Assembly (NCBI RefSeq): GCF_038050405.1
Contig: NZ_CP150901.1
Location: 2,480,001 to 2,544,000 of the forward strand
DNA: 64,000 bases
Direction: 5' to 3'
Origin: Paraburkholderia sp. IMGN_8
GTDB lineage: Bacteria > Pseudomonadota > Gammaproteobacteria > Burkholderiales > Burkholderiaceae
The notes below the pieces were generated by a model that saw nothing but the letters and a program-made list of their open reading frames with translations, was not told where the DNA came from and searched no databases. Positions 5,599 through 16,420 of this stretch are shown here, piece after piece; position 1 is the first letter of the stretch; the number at the start of each line of letters is the position of its first letter. A program made the translations under genes and the position numbers.

Positions 5599-6399
5599 CT
5601 ACTCCGGCAACACCGCGACGGATGCTTCGCTCGTCAGCAGCAGGAAAGTCAACGTTTCCTGCAGGTACAGGCGCACCACCTGGTCCGTGTGGCTCAAATA
5701 TCCGATGCACAGGTCCTGGCCGATGTGCAGGTCGAAGTCGCCGCCACGGGTGGAGAGCACGCTGCCTCCGTCGAGGGCCGGGGCCCAGATGATCTCGCCG
5801 TTCACCAGCCGCTTGATATGTTCGAGCACCGGGTAACCCTGATCGCTCGCTTCGCTCACCGCGGTGTACGCATCGGCGCCCAGCAGGACCGAATACGGAC
5901 CGTCGACGCCGGCCAGCCGCAACTGCTCGAGCGCCTTGGCGATGACGGTGGGATAGTCGCTAACGTCAGCCGGCAAGCTCAGCGTGGGGTTCGACGACCC
6001 TTCCCGAATACCGACGATGTTCGCCGCCTTGTAGCCGTCGAAAATGGCGCGGTCTTCGGCGTAGGCCAATTGCTGTGCTGCATCCTTCGCTGGCTGCCAG
6101 TCGGAATCGCTCGCGCCGCGTTCCACGTCGTCGATCGCCTCGCGCTGCAACTCGAACGGCACACGCAGTTCGACTAGCGCCCTCACCTCGCGCTGGCGTG
6201 CACTCACGCCTTCCTGCGGCGCGGCGATGGTCGACTGGTGACCGGTGCCGACCGCGCTCAAACTGGCGCCGCCAGGACCTTTCACATCGACCACGCGACG
6301 GCCGGCCACGGAGCGCTTGAAGGTGCGTGCAACTTCTTCCTCGATCTCCGACCAGGCCGCGGTGGAGATGGGGGCCAGCTCGCGATGCAGATTATTCAT
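5599..6399 (-). CDS. Family 1 encapsulin shell protein
   Basis: The product is 266 residues, the usual encapsulin (linocin M18/CFP29) length. It begins MNNLHRELAPISTAAWSEIE, the conserved encapsulin start, continues with SVAGRRVVDVKGPGG, and ends with the HK97-fold strands (LTFLLLTSEASVAVLPE). Sixty or more copies assemble into a hollow protein nanocompartment. It overlaps the DyP peroxidase stop by eight bases: its GGAG lies inside the last codons of that gene, which implies translational coupling and matched synthesis of shell and cargo. The cargo carries the expected targeting peptide. Encapsulin-DyP pairs are known in Brevibacterium, Mycobacterium and some proteobacteria, with roles linked to oxidative stress. 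Confidence 0.93.
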   Translation of the reverse strand: MNNLHRELAPISTAAWSEIEEEVARTFKRSVAGRRVVDVKGPGGASLSAVGTGHQSTIAAPQEGVSARQREVRALVELRVPFELQREAIDDVERGASDSDWQPAKDAAQQLAYAEDRAIFDGYKAANIVGIREGSSNPTLSLPADVSDYPTVIAKALEQLRLAGVDGPYSVLLGADAYTAVSEASDQGYPVLEHIKRLVNGEIIWAPALDGGSVLSTRGGDFDLHIGQDLCIGYLSHTDQVVRLYLQETLTFLLLTSEASVAVLPE

Positions 6400-7465
6400 A
6401 CTGAGGTGCTCCTTTGAGAGAGCCGATATTCAGCGAACCATCGCCGACCGGCTCGATAACTGTTGGGAAATCAGGAGACTCGATCGCACTCGCGGCGATA
6501 GCCGGGCTGCGATCCGCGAGCGCTTCGAGCAACGGCTCGGACGGCACGAAGAACAGCCCGCCCGTCACCGCGCGGCTGAAATCGAGCAGCCGGTCGTAGT
6601 TGCCTGGCGGCCGGCCGACGAACATGTTCTCCAGCATCTGTTCAATCGGCGCCGGCGAACGGGCATAGCCGATGAAATACGTGCCGAATTCGCCTGAGCC
6701 GGGTCGCCCGAACGGCATGTTGTCGCGCAGGATCTTGACTTCCTCGCCGTTTTCCTCGAGCACGGTGAGCGAACTGTGCGATGAGCTTGGCTTCACTGCG
6801 TCGTCGAGTTCGATGTCGGAGAGTTTGGTGCGGCCGATGATGCGCTCCTGCGTTTCGACCGGCAACGCATTCCAGCCGGTCATATCGTGCAGATACTTCT
6901 GCACGAGGACATAGCTGCCTCCCGCGAATTCGGGGTCCTCCTCACCGACCACGGTAAACGTGACAGCTTCGTTACCGGTCGGGTTCTCGGTTCCGTCGAC
7001 GAAACCAACCATGCTGCGTTGATCGAAATAACGAAACCCATGCACTTCGTCGACTGCCGTCACCGCCGTGCCGAGCCTGCCCATGAGATGAGTGGCCAGT
7101 TCGAAGCACAGATCCATCTGGTCGGCACGAATGTGCAGCAAGATGTCGCCCGGTGTCGACACTGCCAGGCGCTCGCCCGAGCCGAACTCGCGGAACGGGT
7201 GCAGACCGGCCGGTCGGGGCGCACCGAACAGCGCATCCCAGGCGTCGGAACCGAAGCCGCATACACACGACAGGCCGCCGTCAGGGTTCCGTTTGCCCAC
7301 CGCCCGCACCAGTGCGGCGATATCCGCGCACCACGCACGCACGGTGTCGCGGCTCTCCGCGTCCGGATTGATAGTGGCGACGATGAAGATCGCACTCCGC
7401 TTGGCCTGTGTGGACACGGCCTGCGGTTCGGGGGTGACGGCGGCTTGGATGGGAGTGTCGGACAT
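6392..7465 (-). CDS. Encapsulated dye-decolorizing peroxidase (DyP) with cargo-loading peptide
   Basis: The product is 357 residues. The DyP haem domain shows the family GxxDG motif in SMVGFVDGTENP, whose Asp acts in peroxide cleavage. It is followed by a conserved His/Arg-bearing C-terminal half (SSSHSSL and GTYFIGYARSP). After residue about 330 comes a flexible linker ending in DGSLNIGSLKGAPQYE, the classical encapsulin-targeting sequence (consensus near GSLxIGSLKG). The enzyme uses hydrogen peroxide to oxidise dyes or phenols. It is first in a two-gene operon, followed by the encapsulin gene with an eight-base overlap. The N-terminal 20 residues are low complexity, so the exact start is less certain than the rest. 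Confidence 0.92.
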   Translation of the reverse strand: MSDTPIQAAVTPEPQAVSTQAKRSAIFIVATINPDAESRDTVRAWCADIAALVRAVGKRNPDGGLSCVCGFGSDAWDALFGAPRPAGLHPFREFGSGERLAVSTPGDILLHIRADQMDLCFELATHLMGRLGTAVTAVDEVHGFRYFDQRSMVGFVDGTENPTGNEAVTFTVVGEEDPEFAGGSYVLVQKYLHDMTGWNALPVETQERIIGRTKLSDIELDDAVKPSSSHSSLTVLEENGEEVKILRDNMPFGRPGSGEFGTYFIGYARSPAPIEQMLENMFVGRPPGNYDRLLDFSRAVTGGLFFVPSEPLLEALADRSPAIAASAIESPDFPTVIEPVGDGSLNIGSLKGAPQYE

Positions 7466-8531: not shown

Positions 8532-9356
8532 TCAGGTTCGCTGCTCGGCACGCCGCTCGACAAAGCGCCTCACATAGTCATCCGCCGGACGCGTGAGAAT
8601 TTCGTCCGGCGATCCCTCCTGCACCAACTTGCCGTCGCGCAGGATCGCAATGCGATTGCCGATCCGCAGCGCCTCGTCGAGATCGTGCGTGATGAACACA
8701 ATGGTCTTGTTCAGCGTCGCCTGCAACTGCAATAGCTGGTCTTGCATTTCCGTGCGAATCAGCGGATCGAGCGCGGAGAATGCTTCGTCCATCAGCAGCA
8801 CGTCGGTATCCGCAGCAAGCGCACGGGCAAGGCCGACACGTTGCCGCATACCGCCGGACAACTCATCCGGGTAGTGTTCGCCGTAACCGTTCAAGCCCAC
8901 CTTGCCGAGCCAGACACGTGCCTTCTCATTGGCTTGCGCGCGGCTTTCGCCACGCACACGCAGCGCGTAAGCCGTATTGTCGAGCACGGTCTGATGCGGC
9001 AGCAGCCCGAAGTTCTGGAACACCATGCTGACCTTGAAGCGGCGCAACTCGCGCAAACCTTGCGCGTTGAGCTTGATGACGTCCGAGCCGTCGATCACGA
9101 TCTCGCCGGCGGTCGGCTCGATCAGGCGGTTGAAGTGCCGCACCAGTGTCGACTTACCCGAGCCCGACAGTCCCATGATGACGAAAATTTCGCCTGCGCC
9201 GATATTCAGGCTCACGTCGTTCAGACCGACATTGCAACCGGTCTGCGCAAGGATGTCGGCTTTACCCTTTCCGCCTCTCAACAGATCGAGCACGCGCGCA
9301 TGACCGGTCTGCGGGCCAAAAAGCTTGTACACGTGTTTGACTTCTATCGCTGCCAT
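8532..9356 (-). CDS. Betaine/proline-type ABC transporter ATP-binding protein
   Basis: The product is 274 residues. It has the Walker [11 protein letters not shown]-loop [10 protein letters not shown], signature [15 protein letters not shown] and Walker [13 protein letters not shown] of ABC ATPases. The early insert before Walker A ([23 protein letters not shown]) is characteristic of the ProV/OpuAA quaternary-amine group. The protein is shorter than ProV and lacks the CBS-domain pair that senses osmolarity there, which suggests nutrient uptake rather than osmoregulation. It is last of the transporter genes, 12 bases after the permease, with GGAGAG before its ATG. Confidence 0.9.
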
Positions 9357-9368
9357 ATCGCTCTCCGG

Positions 9369-10337
9369 TTACTTCGCCGTGCGGGTTTCGAGGGCGCCTT
9401 CGCCAGCATGCGTCTCGTTCGTCTGCGCGCTGTTCACGCGGTAAGGAATGCGCGAAGCCGCTTTTGCTTTCCTGCGTTGCGAGAAAAGGCGCCGCGTGCG
9501 GCGATCCTGGCCGTAGCCCTGGCTGATCCGATCGATCACGATTGCCAGTATCACGATGGCGATGCCCGCCTGCGTGCCCTTGCCCACATCGAGCGTCTGA
9601 ATGCCCGCGAGCACATCCTCACCGAGCCCACGCGAGCCGATCATCGATGCGATCACCACCATCGAAAGCGCCATCATCGTCGTCTGGTTGATGCCGGCCA
9701 TGATGCTGGGCCGCGCCAGCGGCAACTGCACGTTCACCAGCAATTGCCAGCGCGTCGTGCCGAATGCACGGGCAGCCTCGACGACATCGCCGTCCACGTG
9801 ACGGATGCCGAGATCGGTCAAGCGAATCAACGGCGGCAGCGCATAAATGATCGTCGCGAGGATCGCGGGTACCTTGCCGAGACCGAACAGCATCAGCACC
9901 GGAATCAGGTAGACAAAGCTCGGCAGCGTCTGCATGACGTCGAGTGTCGGCAACAACATACGCCGCAGCCACGCGCTGCGCGACGTGAAAATGCCGAGCG
10001 GCACGCCGAGTGAGACAGACAGCACGGTTGCCACCAGCATCAATGCAAGGGTCTGCATCAGCTTTTCCCACAGGCCAAAGCAGCCGATCGCGTAGAGCAG
10101 CAGCACGAAGAAGCCGGCAATGCCCAGACGCCGCGTCGCGTTCCACGTAATCGCGCCAACCGCCAGCAGAATCAGCCACGGCGGCATGGCGCGCAGCGCG
10201 CCTTCGAGCGGCACCAGGACGTAGCGCAATAGCGCGATGCTGAACTGGTGGAAGCTGTCGCCGTGGCGGGCGACGAACGACTGCACGGCATCGTTCACCC
10301 AGTCGGCAATCGAAAGATGCAGAAAAAACGAATTCAT
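9369..10337 (-). CDS. Betaine/proline-type ABC transporter permease
   Basis: The product is 322 residues with about seven membrane helices. The binding-protein-dependent permease signature lies at AARAFGTTRWQLLVNVQLPLA, the EAA loop that docks on the ATPase. The N-terminal periplasmic-side segment DWVNDAVQSFVARHG and the MQTLPSFVYLIPVLMLFGLG helix are typical of ProW/OpuAB. The start at 10337 was chosen because a purine-rich GGGGAGGGG precedes it; the upstream in-frame extension has no ribosome site. A basic C-terminal tail of about 40 residues is unusual but harmless. It lies between the binding-protein and ATPase genes in one operon. Confidence 0.88.
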   Translation of the reverse strand: MNSFFLHLSIADWVNDAVQSFVARHGDSFHQFSIALLRYVLVPLEGALRAMPPWLILLAVGAITWNATRRLGIAGFFVLLLYAIGCFGLWEKLMQTLALMLVATVLSVSLGVPLGIFTSRSAWLRRMLLPTLDVMQTLPSFVYLIPVLMLFGLGKVPAILATIIYALPPLIRLTDLGIRHVDGDVVEAARAFGTTRWQLLVNVQLPLARPSIMAGINQTTMMALSMVVIASMIGSRGLGEDVLAGIQTLDVGKGTQAGIAIVILAIVIDRISQGYGQDRRTRRLFSQRRKAKAASRIPYRVNSAQTNETHAGEGALETRTAK

Positions 10338-10441
10338 GATCAACCCCTCCCCTGCAGGTGGACAGCAGACGTGGGACATCCGCTGTCCAACACCGATCCG
10401 CAAAGCGCGATGACGTCATCAGCTCATGACGTCGCCGGCGA

Positions 10442-11479
10442 TCAGGCGCCCGCGAGGCCCGCCTGCACCTTCGACGCCACATCGGCCGGCACCCATTGTT
10501 TCCACATCTCCGGATGCTCACGCAGGAATTGCGTGGCCATGGCGCTCCCGTCGAGTTTCTTCGTGCTCATTTCGAGAATCGTGTTGTTGAGGAAGTCCAT
10601 CGGGAACTTCACCTTGCCGAGCATCGACATGAGTTGCGGGTCCGCGTCGTAGAACGGCGAGGACACACCGACCGTGACATGCGAGACCATGTAAGACGAT
10701 GCGCATTGCGACGTGCTGCTCTCGTCACGCAAGGTCTTCCAGCAGGCGTCGTTATAGGCCGGCATCTTCAACTCGACGAACTTGTACTTCGCCATCAACG
10801 CGGCCGGTCCCCAGTAATAGAAGACGATCGGCGCGCCGCGCTGATACGCGGATGCGATTGCCGCGTCGAGCGCAGCACCGGTTCCCGGATGGAAATTGGT
10901 GTAAGCCGAGTCGAGATTCAGCACTTTGAGCAGACGCGTGTTGACGCGTTCGCAATCCCACCCCGTCGGACAGTTGAGGAAGCGGCCCTTATCCGGTTCC
11001 TCGTCGTCGGCGAACACGCTCTTGTACTTCGGCAGGTCGGCAACCGAAACAAGGCCCGGCGCGACCGGCTTGATACCGCGCTTCGGATCGCCCTTCACCA
11101 CGTATTCCGGCACGAACCAGCCTTCCTTCGTGCCGCCCGGCAAGGTGTCGCCGACCAGCTTGACGCTGCCCGAGGCCACGGCTTTCGCGGTGATCTCGCT
11201 GCGCCCGGTCCATTGTTCGGCCCACACCTGCACGTCGTTGTGTGCGAGCGCGGTTTCGGTGGCCGCTGTACTGCCAGGCACGACATCCGTCTTGCAGCCG
11301 TAGCCCTTTTCCAGAATCTGCCGCAGCACTTCGGTGGCGAAGGAGCCGCTTTCCCACGTAATGCCCGCGAAATGCACGGTCTTGCCCTGCGCGCACCAAC
11401 TGTCCGCGGCATGCGCGCTCGCGCCTGTGAGGGCAAGCGCGGCGGCGCACAGGGCCGCCCGGAATTGTCTGAGTTGCAT
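10442..11479 (-). CDS. Betaine-type ABC transporter periplasmic binding protein
   Basis: The product is 345 residues, with a Sec signal peptide (cleavage after ASAHA) and an OpuAC-type binding fold: VHFAGITWESGSFATEVLRQI at the start and VQVWAEQWTGR later. Quaternary-amine binders of this fold cage the cationic head group with aromatic side chains. Several Trp and Tyr residues sit at suitable places (W in ITWESG, W in AEQWTGR, YYWG near 210), but I cannot model the site. Four cysteines in the mature part suggest disulfides. AAAGG precedes the ATG. The ligand is not known; the downstream enzymes suggest a methylated or cationic amino-acid derivative. Confidence 0.87.
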   Translation of the reverse strand: MQLRQFRAALCAAALALTGASAHAADSWCAQGKTVHFAGITWESGSFATEVLRQILEKGYGCKTDVVPGSTAATETALAHNDVQVWAEQWTGRSEITAKAVASGSVKLVGDTLPGGTKEGWFVPEYVVKGDPKRGIKPVAPGLVSVADLPKYKSVFADDEEPDKGRFLNCPTGWDCERVNTRLLKVLNLDSAYTNFHPGTGAALDAAIASAYQRGAPIVFYYWGPAALMAKYKFVELKMPAYNDACWKTLRDESSTSQCASSYMVSHVTVGVSSPFYDADPQLMSMLGKVKFPMDFLNNTILEMSTKKLDGSAMATQFLREHPEMWKQWVPADVASKVQAGLAGA

Positions 11480-11570
11480 CGTCGATTACCTTTGGAACGT
11501 TGAATTGCGTTGAGTTCGATTGCGGAAAATCCGAGTGCTGGGCGAATGCCTGGGCAGCCGCCTCGTACAC

Positions 11571-12794
11571 TCAGGCAAGCAGGCGCTTCTCGAACGGATA
11601 GTCGGACAGCAGTTCCACCTGGCCGTCGTCGCGTACGTACACCTGTTCCTCCAGCTTGACGCCTTCACCACCGTCTTCATGGCCGATATAGCTTTCGATG
11701 CAGAGCGTCATACCGGGCTCGATCACGCCGTCATAGCCCTTCGCTTCGTTGTCCTCGCGATGGACGATGTACGGGTATTCGCCGGTCATGCCCACGCCAT
11801 GCGCAAGCGCGAAATAGCGGCGCGCCTGATACGGCCCGGGAATCTTCCAGGCGCGGGCGATGAACTCCTGGAACGTCGTGCCGGCACGCACGTTTTCCAT
11901 ATTCGAATGCACCTGTTCGTACGCCAGGCGGTACAGGTTCTTCTGGGCCGCCGTAGCCGGACCGTCGCCGCACAGGAAGGTGCGCGAGAAGTCGGCGTAA
12001 TAGCCGAACCGCCCCACCACGTCGGTATCGAGTCCGACCAGCTCGCCTGCCTGAATCTTGCGCGGACTGCTCTCCTGAAACCACGGGTTGGTGCGCGGCC
12101 CCGAACTGATCAGACGCGTTTCCACGTAATCGCCGTCGGTTTCGATGATGTGCTTATGCAGATGCGACCACAGCTCGTTTTCGCTGATGCCGGGCACCAG
12201 CGCCGCTTCCAGCTTGCGCACACCCTCTTCGGCGGCACGCAGCGACGAGCGGATCATCTTGATCTCATTGGGCACTTTGATCGCACGTGCGCGTTCGAGC
12301 GGCTCCTGCGCGTCGGAGATCTGATAGCCGCGCGCCTGCAGCGCGAACGCCGCAGCCGAAGTCGCGCTCTCGATCGCGATGCGCTTGCCACCGCCGCTCT
12401 GCTTCACCAGTTCTTCGATTTCATCGGCCCAGCGTTCGGTGACGCGACCCAGCATGTCATCGCAGAAGTAATAGGAAATCGCCGTGGCCGGCCGCACTTC
12501 GTCGACGGTGTCGAGCCCGTCGGCGAGAAAATCGCAGCCCGCGTATTCGAACAGCACGACCTTTCCTTCAGCCGGCACGAACAGATAGCGCGCGGGATTG
12601 CGCATCGAATAAACCTGCATGTTGCGCGAGCCGGTCGCATAGCGCATATGCGTCGGGTCGAACAGGATCGCCGCGGTGAGGTCGCGCTTTTTCAGTTCAC
12701 GGCGCACGCGGCCAAGCCGGTCCCGTTGAATCTGCGCGATTTCTTCAGCGGTCGGTTCACAATCTTCCGGGCGGTGAGTCGGGCGAATAATCAT
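11571..12794 (-). CDS. M24-family metallo-hydrolase/lyase resembling DddP
   Basis: The product is 407 residues with a creatinase-type N-terminal domain (about 1-165) and an M24 pita-bread domain. All six M24 metal ligands are visible in order: DTD, the Asp of ADFSRT, the His of HGVG, the Glu of CIES and the Glu of KLEEQV. Two stretches, FDPTHMRYATGSRNMQVYS and ETRLISSGPRTNPWFQE, look much more like the DMSP lyase DddP than like aminopeptidase P or creatinase. However, the base I recall as catalytic in DddP, an Asp six residues after the ligand His (HGVGLCDE), is Gly here (HGVGMTGE). DMSP cleavage is therefore not supported. Its place between a betaine-type transporter and an oxygenase suggests action on an imported zwitterion. 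Confidence 0.75.
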   Translation of the reverse strand: MIIRPTHRPEDCEPTAEEIAQIQRDRLGRVRRELKKRDLTAAILFDPTHMRYATGSRNMQVYSMRNPARYLFVPAEGKVVLFEYAGCDFLADGLDTVDEVRPATAISYYFCDDMLGRVTERWADEIEELVKQSGGGKRIAIESATSAAAFALQARGYQISDAQEPLERARAIKVPNEIKMIRSSLRAAEEGVRKLEAALVPGISENELWSHLHKHIIETDGDYVETRLISSGPRTNPWFQESSPRKIQAGELVGLDTDVVGRFGYYADFSRTFLCGDGPATAAQKNLYRLAYEQVHSNMENVRAGTTFQEFIARAWKIPGPYQARRYFALAHGVGMTGEYPYIVHREDNEAKGYDGVIEPGMTLCIESYIGHEDGGEGVKLEEQVYVRDDGQVELLSDYPFEKRLLA

Positions 12795-12834
12795 CGTGTT
12801 TAGAAGGGGACGTGGTGGTTATAAGAGGAGAGCT

Positions 12835-13722
12835 TCAATCGACCAGATTGTCGGCACGCACGAGCCGCTGCTCGGCTTCCAGATGCATTTCTGACACGCG
12901 TCCATACAACTGCCGGGTGCGCTCGAGCCGGCCGATCACGCCGGACGTCTTCGAGTACGCGAAGATCGCGGTGTGACGATCGATCCCGCCCTGCACCCGC
13001 GTGACGCGGTGCAGCGAAAAACGCCCCTTGAACAATTGCAGATCGCCGGGTTGCAAAGTGATGACGTTGATCGGCGCACGTGTTTCGCCGCGCACCACCC
13101 TGCCCACGTCGCCGTAGTTCTCGCCTTCGGGCGAGCGGATATTCGGGCAATACTCGAAATCGCCGCCCGCCTCCGGCTGCTGGGTCATCATCGAGACGAT
13201 GAATTCATTGGTGTCGTAGTGCCAGGGCTGTTCGGTGCCGGGCGGCATAACGTTCTGCACCAGCCCCGCATACGGGTCCGCGTATTCCCACACGCGCGCC
13301 TCGCCGAGACAGGCGGCGACGAAACGCTTCATCGCTTGCGCCACATAGATGCGATGCACAATCGCATCGGCCGGAATCACGTCGCGCGTCACAAAGCCGC
13401 TGGTGCGGTCCATAAAGACACGGCGCGGATCGTCGGCGGGCAGCGACGGATCGTCGGCGGTGAAATAGGCGTTGACCTTACGGGTCGAAAAATAGGTTTT
13501 GGCTGCCAACGCCACGCCCTCGGCGCGCGCCCTGGCAAGCGCTTCAGGCCGCAGGAAATCGTGCAGCACCGCGCTGCCGTTGCCCGCCAGGTGGGCGCGG
13601 CAGGTCGCAATCAGCTCGCGCATGCGCGGATGGTCCGGATCGTGCAACGGATAGCGCCCGGTATCGACGATGTCGCTCAGATCGTTGCATTCGGCATCGG
13701 CAAGAGAAAGACTGACTGACAC
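12835..13722 (-). CDS. 2-oxoglutarate/Fe(II) oxygenase of the BesD/HalD/ArpA type
   Basis: The product is 295 residues. The metal-binding motif is WHYDTNEF, giving an HxD pair, and the distal His is in FKGRFSLHRVTRV with an Arg further on for 2-oxoglutarate. The surrounding EFIVSMMTQQPEAGGDFEY is typical of proteins filed as HalD/BesD-family halogenases or ArpA. True halogenases carry HxG so that chloride can bind iron; HxD here predicts a hydroxylase. A GTG at 13722 was chosen because GGAG lies seven bases before it; a TTG at 13782 would add 20 residues with no ribosome site. It is first gene of the operon, divergent from the LysR regulator. Confidence 0.78.
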   Translation of the reverse strand: MSVSLSLADAECNDLSDIVDTGRYPLHDPDHPRMRELIATCRAHLAGNGSAVLHDFLRPEALARARAEGVALAAKTYFSTRKVNAYFTADDPSLPADDPRRVFMDRTSGFVTRDVIPADAIVHRIYVAQAMKRFVAACLGEARVWEYADPYAGLVQNVMPPGTEQPWHYDTNEFIVSMMTQQPEAGGDFEYCPNIRSPEGENYGDVGRVVRGETRAPINVITLQPGDLQLFKGRFSLHRVTRVQGGIDRHTAIFAYSKTSGVIGRLERTRQLYGRVSEMHLEAEQRLVRADNLVD

Positions 13723-13843
13723 GGCAGTGCTCCAGATTAAGGGTTCGGACTGATTTGTGACGCGAATTTTTTTCGACAACAATCACCTGTCTAGTGCCCC
13801 CATCTTTTGATCGTCAAATTTCTTTGGAAAGCGAGTAATTCCG
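13723..13843. promoter_or_regulatory. Divergent promoter region between oxygenase operon and LysR gene
   Basis: This 121-base AT-richer gap separates two divergently transcribed starts, the usual arrangement for a LysR regulator and its target operon. It must hold both promoters and the regulator site. I could not assign a single convincing T-N11-A box or -35/-10 pair by eye, so only the region is marked. Confidence 0.5.
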
Positions 13844-14761
13844 ATGGCTGCCATCAGCGGACCCGATTGGTCGAAACTCAGCTCTCTGGACCCCGAACTG
13901 GTGCGCGCCTTTGTCGCCGTGGTCGATAGCGGCGGCTTTACCGCCGCGGCGAAGCAATTGCACCGTACCCAGTCGACCATCAGCCTGCGGATTCGCACGC
14001 TCGAGGACCGGTTGGATACGCATATGTTCTTGCGCAATAGCCGGCGCCTTGCCTTATCGCGGGACGGCGAGAATTTCCTGATTCACGCCCGCCGCATTAT
14101 TCAGGTGCAAAACGAAGCGATCGCGGCACTGAACCGGAGCAACAGTGACGGCGTGATCCGATTCGGCTTGCCGGAGGACTATGCCGAGCTCTGGCTGCCT
14201 GAGTTGCTCAAGAAGTTCTATGCGCTGCGGCCTGGCGCGCGGCCCCATATCCATTGCCGGATGTCGCTCGAATTGCTCGAACGGCTGCAGGCGGGGGAAC
14301 TGGATCTGGCTTTGGTGGTGCGGCATGGCTCGCAGACCAGCGGTAGGCATCTGGGGCGCGAGGAGGTGGTGTGGGCGGCGCACCGCAGCTTCGTACTGGA
14401 TCGGCAGGCGTCGGTGCCGCTCGCGTTGTTTCCGGAGACTTGTTGCTACCGGCAGCGCGGGCTGGAAGCGCTGGCCGCGCTGCAGCGGCAGTATCAAGTG
14501 GTTTATACGAGTCAGAGTCCTACCGGGATTAAGGTTGCTGTCAACCATGGCGCGGCTGTGACTATCATCGATCGCTGTACGCTGCCGGAGAACTGGCGTG
14601 TGCTTGGGGCAGAGGAAGGGTTGCCGCCTTTGCCGCCGGCCGATCTTGAATTGCATCGTTCTTCAGTGAATCGCGATCCGGCCGCGGATGATCTTGCTGC
14701 GTTGATTGAGGCGATGGTTGAGGAGCGGCGTAGTTCTGCGGTTGGTGGCATTGCTGCTTAA
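13844..14761 (+). CDS. LysR-family transcriptional regulator of the adjacent operon
   Basis: The product is 305 residues. An N-terminal winged helix-turn-helix (about 18-75) reads LVRAFVAVVDSGGFTAAAKQL and then QSTISLRIRTLE. The effector-binding domain follows (IRFGLPEDYAELWLPELLKKF onward). Divergent placement over a 121-base gap makes it the likely activator of the oxygenase-M24-transporter operon, responding to the imported compound or a metabolite. A Cys-Cys pair in the effector domain (FPETCCYRQR) is notable but unexplained. A dispersed repeat with a strong hairpin begins just after its stop and probably ends its transcript. Confidence 0.88.
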   Translation: MAAISGPDWSKLSSLDPELVRAFVAVVDSGGFTAAAKQLHRTQSTISLRIRTLEDRLDTHMFLRNSRRLALSRDGENFLIHARRIIQVQNEAIAALNRSNSDGVIRFGLPEDYAELWLPELLKKFYALRPGARPHIHCRMSLELLERLQAGELDLALVVRHGSQTSGRHLGREEVVWAAHRSFVLDRQASVPLALFPETCCYRQRGLEALAALQRQYQVVYTSQSPTGIKVAVNHGAAVTIIDRCTLPENWRVLGAEEGLPPLPPADLELHRSSVNRDPAADDLAALIEAMVEERRSSAVGGIAA

Positions 14762-15060: not shown

Positions 15061-15274
15061 GTTTACTTCGCGCCTCACCTAGGCGCCCTTGTTTTGCGAA
15101 CCCCTCCAGCAGCGAACAAATAATTCGGATAGCAAACGTTCCATAAGAGCGTGCCTCTTGCTGTTCTCGCTCCATCGGCGTTTCCGATTGCTGCCATCAG
15201 AATTCCTCGCTTTGCAAAAAGTATTGGCCAGAAAATCATGCGTCGGCCACTTGCCAATAAATTCTGGAGATCTT

Positions 15275-16420
15275 ATGAAAAAGAAAGTCATCGCCATGGC
15301 CGTACTCGGCGCCGTCGCCGCCCCGGTGTTCGCGCAAAGCAGCGTGACCCTGTACGGCGTGATCGACGAAGGCATCGACTACACCAACAACGTAGGGCAC
15401 GGCAGCGTCGTTGAACTCGCGAGCGGCTATGCACAAGGCAGCCGCTGGGGCCTGAAAGGCTCCGAGGATCTGGGCGGCGGAATGAAAGCCATCTTCCAGC
15501 TCGAAAACGGCTTCGATCTGAACTCGGGGCGTCTCAATCAGGGCGGGCGCATGTTCGGCCGTCAGGCTTATGTAGGCATCAGCAGCGATCGCTTCGGCAC
15601 GGTCACGCTCGGGCGGCAGTATGACTCGGTGGTCGACTACCTCGCGCAAACCACGGCCAACGGCAACTGGGCCGGTTATCTGTTCGCGCACCCGTACGAC
15701 AACGACAACACCGACAACTCGTTCCGCGTCGACAACACCATCAAATACGCAAGCCCGGAGATGGCAGGGTTCCAGTTCGGCGGCACGTATAGCTTCAGCA
15801 ACGACACGAACTTCGCCAACAACCGCCAGTACAGCTTCGGCGCTCAATATGCGAACGGCGGTCTGCTGGTCGCCGCAGCCTACCTGCAGGCGAACAATCC
15901 GGGCGTGGGTTCGAACGGTGCGATCACCGCGAACGACGCCAGCTTTATCGCCGGCCGCATGCGCGTGTTCGGCGGCGGCATCAACTACACCTTCGGTCCG
16001 GCCACCGTCGGCTTCGCCTACACCAACTCGAACTACAAGAACCCCACCGGCAATGGCTATATCGGCATCCCGCTCGCCGCGACCGGCGTCACGCTGAATA
16101 CGCTGAAATACCAGAACTTCGAAGTGAACGGAAAGTATCAGGTCACCCCGGCGTTCTTCGTCGGCGCGCAGTACGTCTACACGATGGAAACCTATGACGC
16201 TTCCACGGGCAGCGTAAAGCCGAAGATCCACTCCGTCGGTCTGATGGCGGACTACAACCTGTCCAAACGAACCGACGTCTACGTGCAGGGCGAGTATCAG
16301 AAGGTCACCGGCAGCTCGACCAACTCGATTCTGGATGATGCATTCATCCCGGGCACGCAATCGCCTTCGTCGACGGCGAATCAGGTGGTTGCGCGCATCG
16401 CGCTGCGCCACAAGTTCTAG
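15275..16420 (+). CDS. General diffusion porin (Gram-negative porin, type 4)
   Basis: The product is 381 residues. The signal peptide MKKKVIAMAVLGAVAAPVFA is followed directly by QSSVTLYGVIDEG, the hallmark first strand of Burkholderiales trimeric porins. The typical GSRWGLKGSEDLGGGMKAIF and RQAYVGISSDRFGTVTLGRQ strands follow, and the chain ends in Phe (ARIALRHKF), as needed for BAM-dependent outer-membrane insertion. GGAG precedes the ATG. It appears to be monocistronic, with a 214-base leader after the repeat and an 860-base gap downstream. It should form a 16-strand channel for small hydrophilic solutes. Confidence 0.93.
   Translation: MKKKVIAMAVLGAVAAPVFAQSSVTLYGVIDEGIDYTNNVGHGSVVELASGYAQGSRWGLKGSEDLGGGMKAIFQLENGFDLNSGRLNQGGRMFGRQAYVGISSDRFGTVTLGRQYDSVVDYLAQTTANGNWAGYLFAHPYDNDNTDNSFRVDNTIKYASPEMAGFQFGGTYSFSNDTNFANNRQYSFGAQYANGGLLVAAAYLQANNPGVGSNGAITANDASFIAGRMRVFGGGINYTFGPATVGFAYTNSNYKNPTGNGYIGIPLAATGVTLNTLKYQNFEVNGKYQVTPAFFVGAQYVYTMETYDASTGSVKPKIHSVGLMADYNLSKRTDVYVQGEYQKVTGSSTNSILDDAFIPGTQSPSSTANQVVARIALRHKF

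Follow-up and report, generated by a model that had tools for sequence, protein, structure and literature searches.

Betaines and dimethylsulfoniopropionate (DMSP) are common nitrogen and sulfur compounds released by plants, algae and salt-stressed cells, and for several of them we know of no described route of bacterial breakdown. Catabolism of an onium carboxylate is represented by the homarine hom operon. Hydroxylation of a quaternary amine with 2-oxoglutarate (2OG) is carried out by gamma-butyrobetaine dioxygenase (BBOX), a member of the TauD-like group, and by trimethyllysine hydroxylase, and in EctD and DoeA a 2OG hydroxylase and an M24 hydrolase work on one compatible solute. The HalD/BesD halogenases have an HXG or HXA iron site, in which chloride replaces the carboxylate. 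Here we describe a locus in Paraburkholderia sp. IMGN_8 (genome 9.11 Mb, two contigs) that probably belongs with the betaine catabolic operons and differs from them in its pairing of an oxygenase with an M24 metalloenzyme. It lies in a stretch of 64,000 nucleotides (contig NZ_CP150901.1, positions 2,480,001 to 2,544,000), which we call the window and whose own numbering is used below. With a little more confidence than doubt, we read the locus as a LysR-controlled operon for the uptake and catabolism of a small betaine. Its six genes are as follows.

8532-9356, minus strand: ABC importer ATPase, ProV-like (274 amino acids; TIGR01186 proV 360.9 bits, cut-off 326.6)
9369-10337, minus strand: ABC importer permease, ProW/ChoW-like (Pfam BPD_transp_1)
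10442-11479, minus strand: OpuAC-type binding protein (Pfam OpuAC 179 bits, cut-off 21.2)
11571-12794, minus strand: M24/DddP-related metalloenzyme (Pfam Peptidase_M24 and Creatinase_N)
12835-13722, minus strand: 2OG-Fe(II) oxygenase, HalD/BesD fold (Pfam HalD 38.7 bits, cut-off 26)
13844-14761, plus strand: LysR-family regulator, divergent (Pfam LysR)

All six lie where the first-pass annotation had put them, with the minus-strand genes in the order oxygenase, M24 enzyme, binding protein, permease and ATPase. The gaps between these five, read in the same order, are 40, 91, 104 and 12 bases, which is consistent with one transcript. The permease open reading frame (ORF) opens at 10403, and its start was taken from homologues, at or near MNSFFLHLS; the oxygenase ORF opens at 13782, and the 295-residue protein from the GTG start is a form also present in the protein database. 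Pfam assigns ABC_tran and three further P-loop/AAA entries to the 274-residue ATPase and finds no CBS domain in it, as had been claimed, so that the C-terminal CBS domains of an osmotically tuned ProV are missing. Rfam gave zero matches at gathering score between 8000 and 15500.

The iron site of the window oxygenase is H168-x-D170 ... H238, a hydroxylase-type triad. Across 70 oxygenase sequences H168 and D170 are conserved at 90% or more and H238 and R249 are invariant, and the protein has both the HX(D/E)...H triad and the basic residue for 2OG that mark a 2OG-Fe(II) hydroxylase by sequence. The HXD pattern recurs in 119 of the best 120 of 2981 homologues, the other (P0112) being unmatched by the search pattern. 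A halogenase-type iron site was considered and rejected, since the window protein has HXD and not HXG or HXA. Several proteins with the HXD triad, P0003, P0008 and P0013 among them, carry the name 'HalD/BesD family halogenase' in NCBI or UniRef, probably a misannotation judging from the triad.

The fold itself is that of HalD and BesD. Pfam lists HalD, a sub-threshold WelO5 and nothing else, which is another sequence family than that of BBOX and trimethyllysine hydroxylase, although theirs is the reaction proposed here. The best fold matches, 13-18% identical, are BesD, HalD and the lysine hydroxylase 'Hydrox', and a number of these structures contain lysine or ornithine. 'Hydrox' is a hydroxylase by name, in which it resembles the HXD type of the window. 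Such matches speak for a route that starts from a free cationic amino acid, the substrate class that the first-pass annotation had named for BesD-group oxygenases. However, identity to these enzymes is low, the window protein differs from BesD, HalD and HalB in its hydroxylase-type triad, and its partners are betaine-type genes, including an importer with an aromatic cage. The genome context favours betaines, and we regard the amino acid route as quite unlikely.

Conservation of the locus was assessed by a scan of genome contigs with the oxygenase, in which the best 80 loci of 173 confirmed relatives were all examined. By oxygenase identity these fall into group A (at least 80%, 25 loci), group B (60-80%, 22 loci, mostly Halomonas) and group C (below 60%, 33 loci). 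In 78 of the 80, the oxygenase gene is followed directly by an M24 gene in the same orientation, the exceptions being two Nocardia loci (L060 and L061), and a LysR gene adjoins divergently at 73. The LysR/oxygenase/M24 arrangement is found in Paraburkholderia, Caballeronia, Burkholderia, Halomonas and related genera, Fodinicurvata, Aquibaculum and a Nannocystineae metagenome-assembled genome, and because it recurs across these genera it is not due to chance. Of the 80 loci, 18 have all six genes, and each of these 18 carries the name Paraburkholderia, Burkholderia or Caballeronia; what is conserved across genera is the unit of LysR, oxygenase and M24, not the whole set. At the 74 loci whose ORF clusters yielded both proteins, oxygenase distances between pairs of loci are correlated with those of the M24 (r = 0.97; best of 1000 permutations, 0.15), which fits long co-inheritance, with a contribution from shared species history.

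Transporters and further enzymes vary between the groups. Group A has a DmpX-like ABC set at 18 of 25 loci and a lone OpuAC-type protein at the other 7. In group B a lone OpuAC-type protein is present at 19 of 22 loci, as are an aldehyde dehydrogenase, an iron alcohol dehydrogenase and an enolase-superfamily enzyme (19 each), with BCCT matches at 6 and GMC oxidoreductase matches at 2. MmsA follows the M24 gene at 20 of the 33 group C loci, where an OsmF-type ABC importer and a nitrilase-type hydrolase each occur at 11 and a lone OpuAC protein and a GMC match at 1 each. Loci without any betaine-type transporter of the tested kinds number 0, 2 and 21 in groups A, B and C, respectively.

Co-occurrence was also counted in independent genome samples. 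Among 200 genomes of the window's family (E <= 1e-40), the oxygenase occurs in 4, each time with the M24 beside it by coordinates, the M24 in 28 and the binding protein in 20, of which 2 have it beside the oxygenase. Among 398 genomes of the phylum, oxygenase relatives (E <= 1e-20) were found in 23 genomes at 25 places, and the M24 adjoins at 8 of these, which all belong to the 12 places where identity is 39% or more. These counts indicate that the oxygenase/M24 pair is tight, that the M24 is commoner than the oxygenase and that the importer goes its own way. The expectation that the two enzymes would co-occur with the transporter thus holds for the enzymes, which stay together; this ABC set is missing at 62 of the 80 oxygenase loci, the pair being mostly accompanied by other transporters, and in the family, too, relatives of this set are mostly found apart from the enzymes, so that the condition set in advance for refuting the reading applies by half.

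The closest solved relative of the binding protein is DmpX (7YLE, DMSP-binding), at only 103 bits. Eight pocket residues of DmpX are defined in PMC10030565, and the window protein (W42, T71, W90, E119, W174, D175, Y221 and W223) keeps seven of them, including Tyr200 and the four tryptophans of the aromatic cage. It differs from the DmpXWV DMSP importer at Ala153: the window protein has Asp here, as do 13 of 14 further relatives, and the other relative, L217, has Gln and additionally Asn at the Thr64 position. Glu113, Trp152 and Tyr200 are missing from three lone OpuAC-type proteins and from two alignable paralogues in the same genome. Because the DmpX pocket residues are kept, the ligand is probably an onium carboxylate near the size of DMSP or a betaine.

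Relatives of the binding protein (48-87% identical) were also followed in 12 stretches from genomes in which the importer lies apart from the enzymes, L215 and L216 being neighbouring stretches of one contig, and neither oxygenase nor M24 is present in any of the 12. With Pfam run on representatives of the neighbour families, an enolase-superfamily enzyme was found in 6 (L210-L215), an aldehyde dehydrogenase (at least 56% identical to that of L216) in 5, an aldo/keto reductase (at least 87%) in 4, and a choline-dehydrogenase-like GMC enzyme (at least 63%; GMC named by eye) in 4. None of these four enzymes was closely matched in L206, which ends at a contig end, or in L207, and L217, with a 48% relative, lies among apparent glycine betaine demethylation genes by eye. 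The enolase-superfamily enzymes of L210 and of Halomonas L041 (group B) are 67% identical, which gives the importer groups a metabolic theme in common with the oxygenase groups.

The M24 enzyme is related to the DMSP lyase DddP, a solved example of which (4b28, 266 bits) is its nearest structure. All six DddP metal ligands given in PMC4108388 (Asp295, Asp297, Asp307, His371, Glu406 and Glu421) are kept in the alignment as D256, D258, D268, H332, E367 and E382. The equivalent of Tyr366 is kept as Tyr327, and the stretch ETRL..SG.RTNPWFQE is shared. However, at Asp377, the base favoured for DddP in PMC4108388, the window enzyme has Gly338; of 74 aligned paired M24s, 73 have Gly at this position and the other has Asn. 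On the DddP model NF043017 it scores 326.9 bits, below the cut-off of 600, while likely DddPs (L114, L117, L118 and L120) score 765-855, L157, beside a BCCT relative, 635, and L154, L156, L112, L071 and L218 between 299 and 476. The earlier description of the enzyme as a DMSP-lyase relative therefore stands as far as kinship with DddP goes, and fails for lyase function by the curated cut-off and the proposed base. Ectoine hydrolase (DoeA/EutD) was likewise rejected, the M24 scoring 46.1 bits against 575 (NF038259) and 35.6 against 613 (TIGR02993); the likeness to EctD and DoeA lies in the pairing of enzyme types.

If the importer served a true DMSP lyase, the operon would be one for DMSP catabolism, and the DmpX-like pocket, the DddP structure and neighbours that resemble the ddd gene set (MmsA, iron alcohol dehydrogenase, BCCT and GMC) all point that way. 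Nevertheless, cleavage of DMSP requires no oxygenase and the hosts are mostly Paraburkholderia and Halomonas-type genera; together with the low model score and the replaced base, this makes DMSP catabolism very unlikely.

In a midpoint-rooted tree of 48 M24 sequences, a Gly-type clade holds all but three of the paired M24s together with five unpaired ones (L150, L151, L152, L218 and L219). Two of the three exceptions, L056 and L057, have Asn and fall among Asp-type enzymes, and the third, L089 from a Pseudomonas plasmid, has Asp. The pairing with the oxygenase thus appears to have repeated origins, an argument for a functional link between the two enzymes; the unpaired members and the exceptions show that Gly type and pairing do not always go together. 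As a separate observation, a 51-residue stretch elsewhere in the genome (G000:C1:4302393-4302542) shares 52% identity with the C-terminal end of the M24 enzyme and is possibly a gene remnant.

Taken together, the claim of a betaine-type transporter operon with a DddP-related M24 enzyme and an oxygenase of the BesD/HalD fold is borne out. In the pathway that we favour, the OpuAC-type ABC importer would, judging from its pocket, bring in a zwitterion with a quaternary ammonium head (a sulfonium being less likely) and a carboxylate, such as gamma-butyrobetaine, beta-alanine betaine or a relative. The HXD oxygenase, with Fe(II), O2 and 2OG, would hydroxylate a carbon of this betaine, and the di-metal M24 enzyme, which is without DddP's presumed base, would then cleave the product at a C-N bond, most likely with release of the amine and with an aldehyde or semialdehyde as the other product. 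Aldehyde dehydrogenases may oxidise the latter, MmsA in group C and a BADH/PuuC-like enzyme in group B.

Several observations weigh against this pathway. If the carbon beside N+ were hydroxylated, the compound would fall apart without the M24, whose requirement is then unexplained. None of the tested transporter types is present at 23 of the 80 loci, and two of these, L067 and L084, have another ABC set between LysR and oxygenase, which in L067 is of branched-chain type by Pfam; by eye, the binding proteins of L162 and L163 are of peptide or LIV type. The wider oxygenase family is not tied to betaines, given the remaining 4 of the 12 phylum places (L158-L161, one family, 39-44% identical), which have a WHFDTN motif and, by eye, housekeeping surroundings without an M24, and where the oxygenase would have a role other than in the operon. 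Conversely, the M24s of L218 and L219 in the window's family, 54% identical to that of the window, have no oxygenase nearby and lie with LysR, a porin and an OpuAC protein, and in L218 with an aldehyde dehydrogenase (the OpuAC protein of L218 by Pfam, the others by eye). An M24 on Sinorhizobium meliloti pSymA, 66.5% identical to that of L071 (group C), has Gly at the 377 position and also has no oxygenase nearby. Around it are genes for an MttB-family protein, for an FAD-dependent protein and for an ABC importer of glycine-betaine type, the binding protein of which shares 52% identity with its L071 counterpart. The same gene order is found on a Shinella plasmid (M24 64.5% identical to L071's), and an oxygenase relative is absent from both 15-kb stretches. 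Besides the MttB-family protein, the Gly-type M24 and the importer, these betaine-type clusters (L253 in S. meliloti, L254 in Shinella) hold a GlxA regulator, an isochorismatase-family protein and MR/MLE and Ldh-family enzymes.

Members of the MttB family demethylate quaternary amines. The oxygenase and the MttB/FAD proteins may thus be alternative entries to the same M24 step, and the oxygenase could be an oxidative N-demethylase in the same betaine operon, with an N-methyl group hydroxylated, formaldehyde leaving and the M24 taking the demethylated product. Locus L044, which unites oxygenase, M24, an MttB-family protein (273 bits, cut-off 525) and an FAD-GcvT protein, fits this as well. On the other hand, the function of aerobic MttB relatives is often unproven, and in Nocardia's order (Mycobacteriales in GTDB) the oxygenase has as partners a methyltransferase and an O-acyltransferase that needs an alcohol, which demethylation would not supply. 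N-demethylation is therefore unlikely in our view, if the most serious competitor of hydroxylation at a betaine carbon.

In that order (loci L226-L251) the oxygenase was found in 27 of 249 genomes, the query's own included, and a relative of carnitine/choline O-acyltransferase adjoins it in 26 (on the opposite strand in one, L248), with an S-adenosylmethionine (SAM) methyltransferase between the two in 21 of the 27. The 27th genome has an oxygenase relative of 37% only, whereas the other 26 are 48-53% identical to that of the window, and no M24 was matched in those 26 loci of 3.8-3.9 kb each. The L060 acyltransferase matches Pfam PF00755 at 519 bits. Since an O-acyltransferase needs an alcohol on the quaternary amine, which a C-hydroxylase would supply, this context is the strongest hint, if an indirect one, that the oxygenase hydroxylates a betaine carbon; the substrate in Nocardia's order need not equal that in Paraburkholderia. 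Separately, UniRef names some Nocardia methyltransferase clusters (P0260, P0293 and P0317) 'Carnitine O-acetyltransferase', perhaps carried over from the neighbouring gene.

The O-acyltransferase and the OpuAC importer would also suit formation of L-carnitine as a protectant from imported gamma-butyrobetaine, with the M24 as an accessory. However, no O-acyltransferase relative is present at 78 of the 80 loci, where partners are instead the M24 and, in groups B and C, aldehyde dehydrogenases, and the importer ATPase is without CBS domains. The L060 enzyme itself has Gln where aligned carnitine enzymes have Arg in the (D/E)-x-H motif. Carnitine formation is the least probable of the explanations weighed here. 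More tentatively than for the window operon, and with doubt outweighing confidence, we propose that this HalD/BesD branch consists of betaine C-hydroxylases put to two uses. In Proteobacteria a base-less, Gly377-type DddP relative would cleave the hydroxylated betaine, and in Nocardia's order the SAM methyltransferase and carnitine-type O-acyltransferase would serve to make and acylate carnitine or a carnitine-like compound, independently of BBOX.

Two features of the operon's surroundings may also bear on it.

13723-13843, no strand: divergent intergenic region between the oxygenase and LysR genes
15089-16420, plus strand: Gram-negative porin, a possible outer-membrane partner (relative at 16 of the 80 loci)

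In alignments of up to 14 loci per group, a conserved box is visible by eye at about 13815-13848, beside the LysR start, and reads on the oxygenase strand TTACTCGCTTTCC in group A, TGACTCGTTT in much of group B and CATTCATTTC in much of group C. Porin relatives of 93-94% identity keep the place beside LysR at 8 loci, and those of 65-66% lie 3' of the ATPase at 6 (L023, L024 and L027-L030). Elsewhere in the window an encapsulin (Linocin_M18, 331 bits) adjoins a Dyp-type peroxidase (5599-7465, minus strand), the usual encapsulin cargo pair.

As the first-pass annotation had supposed, no described pathway with this gene set, and no description of the oxygenase and M24 pair, was found among open-licence PubMed Central papers, although a subscription or preprint report may exist. 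If our interpretation is true, betaine breakdown would gain a new oxidative route through the LysR-oxygenase-M24 unit of Paraburkholderia and halophilic bacteria, and an origin of DddP among the M24 relatives of betaine clusters would be suggested. The database name 'halogenase', which misleads for an enzyme of the hydroxylase type, would be corrected, and the operon of Nocardia's order would offer a direct test case for the making of bacterial carnitine-like compounds by an enzyme unrelated to BBOX.

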